Shown here: positions 9,401 to 63,881 of the stretch, one piece after another
Layout: each line of letters begins with the position of its first letter
How positions within the stretch are numbered: position 1 is the first letter of the stretch
From: Nannobrachium achirus
Lineage: Eukaryota > Chordata > Actinopteri > Myctophiformes > Myctophidae
Reading direction: 5' to 3'
DNA: 64,000 nt
Assembly (NCBI GenBank): GCA_963921795.1
Contig: OY997641.1
Span: forward strand, 26,254,752-26,318,751
The notes under the pieces: generated by a model
Told to the model about the DNA's origin: nothing
What the model saw: only the letters and a program-made list of their open reading frames with translations
Databases searched by the model: none
Program-made: the position numbers and the translations under genes

Positions 9401-11012
9401 AGGCTTTCAGCTTCAGGAAGTAACCAAAAATACACAGGGAAGACATATTTGCACATGTAACCACACCTGGGCATCTATTAGAGTAATGTTAACTCCATAG
9501 ACACATAAAAAACAGAAAAAGTACAAAACTATGGCACCACCTCTTTAAAGTACCAAAAATAGAAAGTACTCATTAAGCAGAATGTCCCATTTAACAGTTT
9601 TCAAATGTATAAAATGTATTAAAATCTTTTGAAAATGGCAGATCTACTAGCTTATAGTGTCGCTTCACAACGCATTGTGAGCTTGTAGATCAGCTATTTT
9701 CAAAAGGCCGAATGTATAGAACCGAGGTATGTATGTATGTTTTGTAATAATAATCAAAACCTGCAAAGTAACTACAGTACTAAAGTTTTCAAATAAATGT
9801 AGTGGAGTAAAAGTACAATATTTGGATCTGAGATGTAGTGGAGTAGAAGTAAAAGTACTGCAAATTTGGAATACTCAAGTAAAGTACGAATACCTCAAAA
9901 GTGTACTTAAGTAAATGTAATTAGTTACTTTACACCACTGCCCCTTAACCCCTTCACGCCAGTATGACACCACCATGTCTGATGGCCAAATGAAGAAGAC
10001 AGCCAGCAATGCCAAGCTGAGACGCTACCTCCCCGACTTCACCTTCACGCCTTTTAAAGAAGGTCAGAATTATTTTTCTTACATTTATTTCAGGTTCAAT
10101 TTAGGTTTCCGGCAGGGACGTGCTGGGCCCCTGATTCAGCCCGGGAAAAAGAGTTGGAGAGGCCCTCATTGCGTGCTATAGAGAGAGATCTCTCTCTATA
10201 GCGCTGCTGCTACTCAAAGATTTGTGACAAAGTGACAAGCCATGGGCCAATTACAAGAGTTATATTTCGACGTTGTCGGGTGGAAACCTTGTATGTCCAA
10301 AACCGTTTGTTTTGTATTTATCATTTTAAAAATGATTTAAACTAGTGAAAACAGCCGATCTACAAGCACACAACGCCTCGCACCGCAAGGCGTTGTGTGC
10401 TTGTAGATCTGCTGTTTTCACTACTTTTGTGCGACGGCCTTGTATGATGAAGCAGGGCTTTGCTTTACGAAAAAATCTACAAATTTGAAACTTGGAGATA
10501 CGAGGTTCTGCCCGACAGTGACGATTTACTTTGTTGGCCGCCCAGCCCCCAAAATGGAACGAAGGCAGACATTTTATTTTTTATTTTTTCCTAATGGCCG
10601 GCCTGGACCGGCCGGGAATGAACCGGCCGTTCGGGAGTTGTCCCGCTTTTCCCAATGACCAGCACGTCCCTGGTTTCCGGCATTTGACGAGGTGCGGTGA
10701 GAATGTATGAATGAGTTTACGATAAGCTGTTAATGTGATTTTAACGACAGTCATTACAAACACATGTAGTGAGTGTTGTCTCATTGTTGTTTTATTTGGA
10801 TATGCATGAGATGTTCTTGATGAGGTGTCAAGGAAATATCTCTTTTCCTTGACACGGCATCTAGTTGTGCCACTCCACACTCTGCATAAAAGCGTATAGC
10901 GCATCATGTAGCCTGTGGGCATCACATAACTTGTTTCTCTGCCTGTTCTCTTTCAGGTGTCAAAAAGACCTGTGATTGGTTCGTGGCCAACTACGACATT
11001 GCTCGCACATAG
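422..11012 (+). CDS. gfus: GDP-L-fucose synthase, copy 1 (10 coding exons, 324 aa)
   Basis: Makes GDP-L-fucose from GDP-4-keto-6-deoxymannose by epimerisation and NADPH reduction in the cytosol, supplying fucosyltransferases. Exons: 422-576, 5352-5466, 5614-5742, 7482-7555, 7711-7844, 7965-8029, 8131-8197, 8855-8934, 9963-10062, 10957-11012. They total 975 nt and all phases join. Seen: nucleotide-binding TGGSGLVG near residue 15; SCLSSCIFP with the expected catalytic Ser117 and Cys119; YSHAK with Tyr146 and Lys150 (the SDR YxxxK pair); VFGPHDN with His180. The length is close to that of the human enzyme (about 321 aa). The ATG was chosen because both paralogues share it and it precedes the Rossmann strand. 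Odd points: residues QFMFSQ replace the more usual QFIYSL seen in copy 2, and an extra intron (8935-9962) splits a segment that is one exon in copy 2. Introns are full of transposons. An ATTAAA lies at 11033. Confidence 0.93.
1233..1306 (+). repeat. tRNA-Glu-like sequence (SINE head or tRNA pseudogene)
   Basis: It has an A-box-like TGGTCTAGTGGTTAAGATA, a CTTTCAC loop that would place a TTC anticodon, and a B-box GGTTCGAAGCC. The acceptor and anticodon stems do not pair well, so a working tRNA is unlikely. It sits inside the hAT element at 1089-5254. Confidence 0.45.
1512..1740 (-). mobile_element. LINE 3' end fragment (inverted copy of 22,900-23,120)
   Basis: TTGATTGATTGAAGACTTTA is followed by AGGAGTTTGCATAGGAAA, then a block that is the reverse complement of the 3' end of the LINE-like sequence at 22.9-23.1 kb. 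No coding part remains here. Confidence 0.5.
2290..3110 (-). mobile_element. Degraded L2/CR1-type LINE, reverse transcriptase C-terminal part
   Basis: On the minus strand the open segment 2820-3110 reads [20 protein letters not shown], then [17 protein letters not shown] and [11 protein letters not shown]. These are typical of the region after the catalytic core in L2/CR1-clade LINE reverse transcriptases. A downstream segment (2370-2663) gives [12 protein letters not shown] and a phenylalanine-rich decayed tail. Frames are broken and the 5' part is missing, so it is a dead fragment. It ends in an ATAATAATAAAG-type run. Confidence 0.8.
3080..3240. repeat. 15-bp tandem repeat, small palindrome and (GTCC)n simple repeat
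   Basis: Three copies of TCTCAGCGTCAATTC-type units are followed by CCCCATGCCTTCGGCATGGGG, a perfect hairpin, then a run of CGTC/CCGT units to about 3230. A similar (CCGT)n run occurs at 15,170-15,210, so it may belong to one repeat family. Confidence 0.7.
3410..3530. repeat. Tandem repeat, period about 43 bp
   Basis: TTGAAATGAACCACCACAAG followed by GCAAACTGCTCTTT occurs twice and then a third partial time. No coding meaning is seen. Confidence 0.75.
3531..4471. other. Non-coding filler inside the hAT insertion
   Basis: AT-rich sequence with no recognisable gene. One half of the hairpin-module motif (AAAATAGCAGATCTG) lies near 4106. Confidence 0.4.
4472..4812. mobile_element. Short hAT-like element, terminal repeats CAGGGGTGT...ACACCCCTG
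   Basis: The left end is CAGGGGTGTGCAAAGTGCGG and the right end GTTTGGACACCCCTG, a well-known fish terminal inverted repeat type. The interior has no open frame. A related left end occurs at about 1363-1500. I could not find a clean target duplication. Confidence 0.7.
5860..6480 (+). mobile_element. LINE ORF2 C-terminal fragment
   Basis: In one frame it reads [20 protein letters not shown], a Cys/His-containing C-terminal motif of several fish LINE ORF2 proteins. The sequence lies in gfus intron 3 and is partly repeated at 19,915-20,265. The AATAAAGCATTTTG tail at about 7160 followed by a GA run looks like its 3' end, separated by the SINE and CATATATGG repeats. Confidence 0.6.
6500..6760. 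repeat. Repeat carrying CCATATATGG motifs
   Basis: TCTCCATATATGGG occurs at about 6507, 6652 and 6671 within a block related to 15.4-16.3 kb and 30.4-30.8 kb (shared CATAACGAATAACTGA and GGTCCGATATACATCACTGG). Confidence 0.7.
6770..7051 (+). mobile_element. tRNA-derived SINE
   Basis: The head has GCGGCATAGCTCAGGGGTAG (A box) and GTTCGAATCCG (B box). The tail has GTAAAGCGCTTTGGATTAAA and GCGCTATATAAATGCACC followed by ATTTACCATTTT, typical of fish tRNA SINEs. It lies in gfus intron 3 on the gene's sense strand. Confidence 0.85.
7223..7308. repeat. (GA)n microsatellite
   Basis: About 85 bp of nearly perfect AG repeat, ending in AGATAGAAACAGACAGACAG. It follows the LINE-like 3' tail. Confidence 0.95.
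7626..7688. repeat. (GT)n microsatellite
   Basis: About 62 bp of GT repeat in the short gfus intron 4, ending about 20 bp before the exon 5 acceptor. It may influence splicing because long GT/UG runs bind splicing factors; that effect is inference. Confidence 0.95.
8222..8484 (-). mobile_element. tRNA-derived SINE (antisense)
   Basis: The minus strand reads GGTTGGGGTTCGATCCC (B box) followed by GACTAGAAAAATGGGACCC and a GCTGCCTCACAC body, a common fish SINE. It begins about 25 bp after gfus exon 7. Confidence 0.75.
8935..9962 (+). other. Copy-1-specific intron inside a coding segment that is one exon in copy 2
   Basis: Donor GTATCC and acceptor CGCCAG bracket 1028 bp. Joining gives an in-frame CCA ATA CTT TAT GAC, whereas copy 2 has CCA ATA CAG TAT GAC with no gap. 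The intron contains a hairpin module (9631-9701) and a MITE end (TTTACACCACTG near 9940). The same donor and intron start are found in the inverted fragment at 22,362, so it predates that rearrangement. Confidence 0.75.
9631..9701. repeat. Hairpin module (GATCTACAAGC family)
   Basis: GAAAATGGCAGATCTACTAG is mirrored by GAGCTTGTAGATCAGCTATT across a short loop. It is one member of the family described in the findings. Confidence 0.8.
10263..10527. mobile_element. MITE with hairpin module, terminal repeat CGTTGTCGGGTGGAAACC
   Basis: Left end TCGACGTTGTCGGGTGGAAA and right end CGAGGTTCTGCCCGACAGTG are inverted copies. The centre (10,344-10,422) is a near-perfect hairpin, AGTGAAAACAGCCGATCTAC mirrored to GTTTTCACT. 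Relatives are at 41.5-41.7 kb and 53,571-53,835, with a deleted form at 32.77-32.98 kb. It lies in the last gfus intron. Confidence 0.85.
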
Positions 11013-11416
11013 TTCATCATCCAATACAAGCGATTAAACATTTTGGTTGAGATGGCAAACACCAGTATTCTCAAAATATTTTGTTTTGTTACACAGTATG
11101 TAACGAAATGTTAATATGTACCACATTCTTTACTGTTTCTCTTTCTGTACATAATCCAGATGAATGTGATCTTTGAGCGCTGCGTACAAATGTGTAAATG
11201 TTTGTCATGTTGCGATAGTTACTATACTGGTTAAATAAGGGACAATAGAAGAATGTAAATACAAGACGCCGGTCTCACCATTGAGTGTTGAGTTTGAGTG
11301 TTTGAGTGTTCCTGCGCTGGCCATATCCTGACAAAAGATTTATGTGGGTTTACATCTACAGATCTACAGATCTCTGCATCAGTGATGAATTTACAATGGG
11401 TTTATATAGGAAGGGG
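11013..11416 (+). other. gfus copy 1 3' UTR and flank
   Basis: Follows the TAG at 11,012 and is duplicated after 14,916. ATTAAA at 11,033-11,038 is a possible weak poly(A) signal; no perfect AATAAA was found nearby. No other gene is seen. Confidence 0.5.
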
Positions 11417-63475: not shown

Positions 63476-63666
63476 ACACTGAAGACAGACCAAAGAAATG
63501 AACATAATGCAGATAACGCGAGAAGAAATAGTTATATGAAAGACAGAGATATGACATAGGCTAATTATCTATCATACTATTATTATACAGTTATTTATTC
63601 CTAAACCTAATGTTACAGGATAAGATATTACATTTATTTGTATAGCAATAATCACATTGTTTGTAT

Positions 63667-63881
63667 CTACCACTTAAACCCTCTATTCTTAGTAAAACGT
63701 TCTTGAGTTACAACTGCACATGGATTACTTCTATCTACACAAAATCGCTTCGCCAAAAATAGCCAATCTACAAGCTTACAACGTTTTGCTGCCCACATAA
63801 ACACGTAGTTGTGAGCTTGTAGATATGCTATTTTTGTCGAATATTCCCCCAGAATAGTCATGCTCTGGTTCAAGTGGTTAA
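63667..63881. mobile_element. MITE with hairpin module downstream of the adhesion GPCR
   Basis: TACCACTTAAACC at the left and GGTTCAAGTGGTTAA at the right are inverted. The hairpin 63,752-63,838 has AAAAATAGCCAATCTACAAG mirrored to GCTTGTAGATATGCTATTTT. Same family as 16,878 and 29,094. 63,882-64,000 is AT-rich with no gene. Confidence 0.8.

Follow-up and report, generated by a model that had tools for sequence, protein, structure and literature searches.

The arrangement closest to the one described here, in which a palindromic core recurs at the centres of DNA transposons with different ends along a 64,000-bp stretch of the genome of the fish Nannobrachium achirus (assembly GCA_963921795.1, contig OY997641.1, positions 26,254,752 to 26,318,751; hereafter the window), is found in Acropora corals. 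Six families of miniature inverted-repeat transposable elements (MITEs) in those corals, the CMITEs, differ in their terminal repeats and have a 75-bp internal region in common (PMC2872659). According to the accessible part of that paper, CMITEs are TTAA-flanked derivatives of piggyBac, numbering about 1,600 in one species; their internal region is more conserved than their ends, TTAA duplications are present, and a new element was formed by nested insertion (PMC2872659). Among the papers listed by the literature searches, none was seen to describe the present core, the coral paper being the nearest.

The likeness to CMITEs is one of organisation: an internal region is common to families whose terminal repeats differ, TTAA duplications occur (here in family B), and nested insertion creates a new element. 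As far as the accessible coral text goes, the present case differs in the crossing of the core into hAT-type hosts, which have an 8-bp duplication, and into family A hosts, in its form as a near-perfect palindrome, in its far greater abundance, and in empty-site evidence for nesting. Several families of short interspersed elements (SINEs) likewise have a common central domain and differing ends. They resemble the present system in their conserved centre, but SINEs are retroelements, whereas the present carriers are DNA transposons with a palindromic centre. Among fish elements, Angel of the zebrafish is a foldback MITE which, in the part of the source that treats it, forms intrastrand pairs as a model for amplification (PMC12628747, citing Izsvak 1999). 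Angel and the present core are both foldback sequences of fish, likened by description, but Angel is a single family, and the passage that treats it makes no mention of a core common to several families. Finally, template switching between inverted repeats is described, in the accessible parts of two papers, as homogenising the arms and inverting spacers of 2-5 bp (PMC8604942; PMC8794818). Similar marks are seen in the ACC and GGT tips reported below, although the published cases concern yeast coding genes and RNA genes, and the present one a repeated transposon core.

It is proposed, with a probability of roughly 0.6, that the core is an old palindrome residing inside non-autonomous DNA transposons (MITEs), that it does not move by itself, and that it has spread as a passenger by nesting. 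A module-bearing MITE would insert into another element; the composite would then be copied by the machinery of the outer element, and the ends of the inner element may wear away. Replication template switching between the arms would reshape the hairpin, inverting its tip and making the arms and the host-specific border letters match, and the hairpin would be lost through internal and microhomology deletions.

The core itself is not in doubt. When the window was searched with the arm GCTTGTAGATCTGCTATTTT, allowing at most 3 mismatches, 37 matches were obtained, against a mean of 0.01 in 100 shuffles. A weight matrix trained on the window's own arms (at most 4 mismatches; threshold 11 bits) identified 42 arms of 22 nt, where ten first-order Markov sequences gave approximately 0.2 per 64 kb. 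The repeated palindromic module claimed in an earlier sequence-only reading of the window was therefore borne out. That reading had counted 16 full and 11 half copies. Complete hairpins, taken as two facing arms of at least 14 bits, 5-70 bp apart, numbered 13; the other three full copies, starting at 41607, 44155 and 58998, have one arm that is degenerate or shortened. The half copies were confirmed as single arms, but their count was 13. A module measures about 71 bp: its two arms are about 35 bp each and are joined by a tip of some 3 nt. Across all host groups the arms are alike in their outer 22 bases, GAGCTTGTAGATC(T/G)GCTATTTT, and the inner part, with the G+C-rich tip, is group-specific. 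RNA folding of five modules gave energies of -40.5 to -64.1 kcal/mol, with z values of -9.3 to -15.0.

The core was also searched for in the window's own genome (1,658,514,493 bases, 564 contigs), the sole eukaryote searched. The 20-nt arm has 149,964 exact copies there; the reversed control has none. A sample of twenty 10-kb stretches, at fixed positions on 17 contigs and with 193,972 readable bases in all, contained 93 arms and 28 hairpins; by extrapolation the genome would have about 800,000 arms and some 240,000 hairpins. Searches of viral and prokaryote sequence collections gave no match to the core. At L028:6466-6536 a module is situated inside a longer imperfect inverted repeat (about 110 bp, 70%), and its border letters resemble the ones at L024:7009 and L028:7261; this may be another host group.

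The hosts are diverse. Flanks outside the core sort into 22 recurrent types and 51 singles, and homology unites most of the recurrent types in roughly nine groups, A, B, C, D, E, G, H, I and J, a scheme read by eye from the table of flank homologies; type F joins A, and many subtypes fall inside B. The five end types on which the sequence-only reading had based its claim of at least five different hosts were all located in the window, namely GTTGTCGGGTGGAAACC, TTAACCACTTGAACC, CAGGGGCGTCAC, CAGTGGTTCTCAACC with its relative TTCCCAAAC, and CAGGCACGTGCAC at 58702, and the classification of hosts by their ends that it had suggested yields groups which differ in target duplication as well. Exact 8-bp duplications were present on both sides of four window hosts, which on this feature are classed as putative hAT-type elements (window coordinates are followed by the strand where one is assigned): Y, with ends CAGGGACGTGCTGG and CCAGCACGTCCCTG and duplication GTTTCCGG (10113-10672, +); the outer element of C, with CAGGGGCGTCAC ends and duplication GGAAGGGG (11417-11938, +); D, with GTTTAGAG (39909-40186, +; module 40010-40080); and E, with GTTTAGAT (26663-26923, +; single arm 26830-26851). 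Host H (CAGGCACGTGCAC to TGCACGTCCCTG; 58702-59118, +; shortened module 58998-59048) failed the test for an exact 8-bp duplication, with CCTATAGG against CTCCTAGG, and was not classed as hAT.

Family B has TTAA at both ends, at 16879-17085 (+; module 16915-17000) and at 29094-29262 (minus strand; module 29138-29221), as in piggyBac/TTAA-type elements. The duplication of family A is A+T-rich and 2-4 bp long (ATTT, ATTT and ATAT in the window copies). The core is, then, common to families with different terminal repeats, as is the internal region of the CMITEs, and the corresponding claim of the sequence-only reading holds across three kinds of duplication. When near-duplicates (L002, L003, L006) were removed, the nearest neighbour in module sequence belonged to the same host group for 0.66 of 44 modules, compared with 0.15 after shuffling (maximum 0.36). 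This clustering suggests that transfers between hosts were probably few and that copying within hosts did the remainder.

The route of transfer is clearest for family A. Nineteen copies, retrieved with a pattern from the end of A that lies beyond the module, were compared, all from contig C1 between 0.49 and 9.85 Mb (L045 was left out); 15 of them keep two facing arms. Ten are situated in a host designated X (on both sides in seven cases), six in Y (on both sides in all six) and three elsewhere. The sequence of an X empty site, that is, X minus family A and one copy of the duplication, was written down before the search, and 210 exact occurrences of it were found in the genome, as expected if family A is a mobile element. 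At the four loci that were fetched, X continues on both sides; no arms were present within 600 bp of the empty site in these four, and three of them have arms farther away. On the simplest interpretation, X was at first free of A, an insertion brought in A together with the module, and X and its passenger were copied jointly thereafter. Within the window, a family A element with TCGACGTTGTCGGGTGGAAACC ends and duplication ATTT (10267-10524, +) contains the module at 10344 (10339-10427) and itself lies inside Y, for which the predicted empty-site sequence is ATGAGTTATATTTACTTTGTTGGCC.

A further case is provided by the C core, which contains two modules (11488-11580 and 11777-11874) and fills the interior of the element with CAGGGGCGTCAC ends at 11417-11938. 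The same ends surround it at L026:4088-4642, and in other copies the C core has TTAA-type flanks. Judged from this anatomy, it looks like the product of the same nesting process, with the inner ends worn. The same route may apply to the other host groups, B, D, E, G, H, I and J. The sequence-only reading had offered exchange between element centres as one explanation; where a test could be made, this is replaced by nesting of a whole module-bearing element followed by joint amplification.

The shape of the hairpin is consistent with reshaping by template switching. The palindrome extends 4-8 bases past the core, in letters that vary from host to host and yet tend to agree from one arm to the other (TAGTG/CACTA in A, GCCA/TGGC in B, TTGTG/CACAA in D, and 10 bp in one J copy). 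Borders were tested on 26 representatives of 47, one per flank pair. Border letters 1-4 matched from arm to arm at a rate of 0.663, where permutation gave 0.334 (none of 2000 reached the observed value), and letters 5-8 at 0.471 against 0.307 (2 of 2000); letters 9-12 showed no excess (0.279 against 0.285). Inverted 4-mers adjoining the core were seen in eight of the 26, with 1.2 expected and a maximum of five in 500 permutations. Template switching may have made these matching, host-specific letters, with which it is compatible. Next to one exact host flank, the tip triplet was ACC in 3,228 copies and its reverse complement, GGT, in 1,717; TGG, a control at the same distance from ACC as GGT, was not found. 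Both orientations thus occur in a single host, as template switching predicts. Inversion of the whole module in family A, considered on account of the CCG/CTG polarity of the arms, was unsupported, as arms and tip do not swap together in the copies read.

Loss of the hairpin by deletion was observed. The centre of family A was measured between two exact flanks: it was 55-85 bp long in 8,971 copies, those listed being whole or partly shortened modules, and 0-30 bp long in 223. Among the approximately 100 short centres listed, most are shortened palindromes of many lengths, indicating varied deletions. Family B has 255 copies with short centres, again mostly varied among the approximately 100 listed. 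The junction AGAACTTTGGTGTAGAGGGG accounts for 29 of the 100 listed, presumably all B copies; here the right flank has also lost 11-14 bp, between CTTT repeats.

Several observations weigh against the passenger reading. Empty sites support nesting only for A in X, the cases of Y and C being argued from anatomy, and at least 53 of the 100 X empty sites listed lie in one 2.8-Mb array on C4, so that the 210 occurrences are not independent. The tip counts are of copies, not of events, and may partly reflect two old subfamilies. In 15 of the 26 representatives, stem position 14 carries a mismatch, in either orientation (the next most affected position is mismatched in nine), which speaks against frequent homogenisation of the arms, since this should have erased the mismatch. 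Equal dinucleotides three letters outside the core occur in six of the 26, compared with 2.6 in permutations (14 of 500 as high), a weak excess from one of 36 tests and one offset of nine. Lastly, among the listed short-centre copies of family A, seven read exactly TTTAAACTACTTTTG and two more differ from it by one letter; these junctions fit both a clean TA empty site and a deletion between the ACTA repeats that flank the hairpin.

The last two observations would be expected if the palindrome were itself mobile, as the sequence-only reading had also suggested, and inserted into the centres of elements with a TA duplication, with none, or into short palindromes. The occurrence of the core in approximately nine host groups, with no match between their flanks past 8 bp, agrees with such an origin, as do border letters that form short palindromes of their own, which insertion into the middle of a palindrome would leave. 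TA is present at both borders in A, E and the module at 58998, and outside the C core, and for these hosts a TA duplication is possible; one listed short-centre A copy, C6:10048340, differs by one letter from an empty border palindrome. On the other hand, an 8-bp direct repeat was found at the module borders in none of the 26 representatives at any tested offset, and a general direct repeat of 3-4 bp was likewise absent (at one offset, 4 of 26 for 3 bp and 2 of 26 for 4 bp). By eye, no TA borders were seen in B, D, F, G and J, and a mini Tc1-like element with a TA duplication was therefore rejected as a general rule. No exact empty border palindrome occurred among the listed short centres of A and B, most of which are the varied deletions described above, and the clustering of modules by host implies that entries were few. 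A stretch in L015 that might be taken for host H with an empty site resembles a truncated fragment. There is, then, no good evidence for independent movement of the palindrome, and this explanation is considered improbable.

It is also conceivable, if rather unlikely, that selection maintains the core as a cis-acting component of the MITEs, for example an enhancer of transposition or a binding site read on both arms, which many families have retained or acquired because it raises copy number. The arms are alike across host groups with unrelated flanks, and the persistent mismatch at one stem position would suit such a role. Arm identity was 0.932, against 0.56-0.58 in the flanks, for ten B-type elements that had been selected through their arms. 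When 20 B copies were picked by the left flank alone (pairs covering less than 60% of columns being left out), it was 0.63 and 0.66, against 0.48-0.50, so the former figure was inflated by selecting on arms; strong arm conservation in family B was accordingly given up, and a modest difference remains. Moreover, only six of the 20 flank-chosen copies keep two facing arms. A combined account, in which unrelated families of DNA transposons took up the core as a putative cis accelerator of copy number, nesting spread it between superfamilies, and template switching preserved its shape, to reach some hundred thousand copies in one genome, is offered as speculation and is doubtful. That the hairpins are precursors of small RNAs, the common sequence reflecting an RNA function, is very improbable. 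The long stems and strongly negative z values agree with it, but equally good folding is expected of any long palindrome. No Rfam match reached the gathering score within the window, giving no known structured RNA, and core strings of 14-17 letters had only a chance match in the PMC literature, in an algal paper. Least credible is descent of all hosts from one ancestral transposon as deletion or end-variant forms, which the sequence-only reading had raised as the counter-case to an independent module. The merging of some flank types, F with A and the many subtypes of B, speaks for it; against it stand the three kinds of target duplication (8 bp, TTAA, and A+T-rich of 2-4 bp) and the existence of X without A and the module at the empty site. 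Within each single host group, an origin from one ancestor could hold.

The other modules of the window are distributed as follows. A full module of type F, with a left flank related to family A, lies at 9627-9705. Family A is represented further by a copy with its left arm deleted (32758-32986, +; single arm 32856-32877; duplication ATAT), a copy with a shortened module (41539-41744, minus strand; module 41604-41665) and an element with duplication ATTT (53575-53833, minus strand; module 53670-53764). A family B copy has lost its module by a deletion that starts within it (12642-12777, +), and a B-related element with GGTTCAAGTGGTTAA at its right has a full module (63749-63882, minus strand; module 63749-63841). 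A second two-module C core lies at 36396-36827 (+; full modules 36414-36496 and 36743-36810), and there are two C-like elements, one with a shortened module (44115-44243; arm 44185-44206) and one with left end CAGTGGTGCACAAACC (55106-55286, +; module 55217-55275). A family D copy retains a single arm, 32156-32177, of a partly deleted module (32069-32303, +), and a second E element has right end GGGAACCAGTG (39738-39900, +; module 39749-39837). Single arms outside assigned hosts are found at 33443-33464 (+) and at positions starting 4324, 19673, 30906, 36090, 38560, 38766, 40656, 44583 and 46322.

Some hAT-type elements were inserted directly at one another's ends (26663-26923 and 39738-40186): the E element at 26663 adjoins a D-like end, and the D element at 39909 adjoins an E element, with the duplications GTTTAGAT and GTTTAGAG given above. 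They look as if each insertion recreates a preferred target. The C4 array mentioned above (C4:71.7-74.5 Mb), a large repeated one, is on the chromosome of the window, and 47 of the 53 X empty sites listed from it are on one strand. Reading frames in the window match TFIIF-alpha and an epimerase family, with a uromodulin-like D8C domain below the Pfam cut-off. Partial copies of one unit occur at 7290-8199, which has the epimerase-family reading frame, and at 20268-21182, 22062-22260 and 32995-34480. Long direct repeats, 93-99% identical, are found within 6 kb at 12807-18529 (for example, 13342-13641 and 17967-18266).

The usual classing of MITEs by their ends is broken by a centre present in more than one superfamily. 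A concrete route for such transfer, namely nesting and then riding along, is provided by family A in its hosts X and Y. The thousands of host-anchored tips in either orientation would constitute a natural record of hairpin-mediated template switching, a subject usually studied at single loci.

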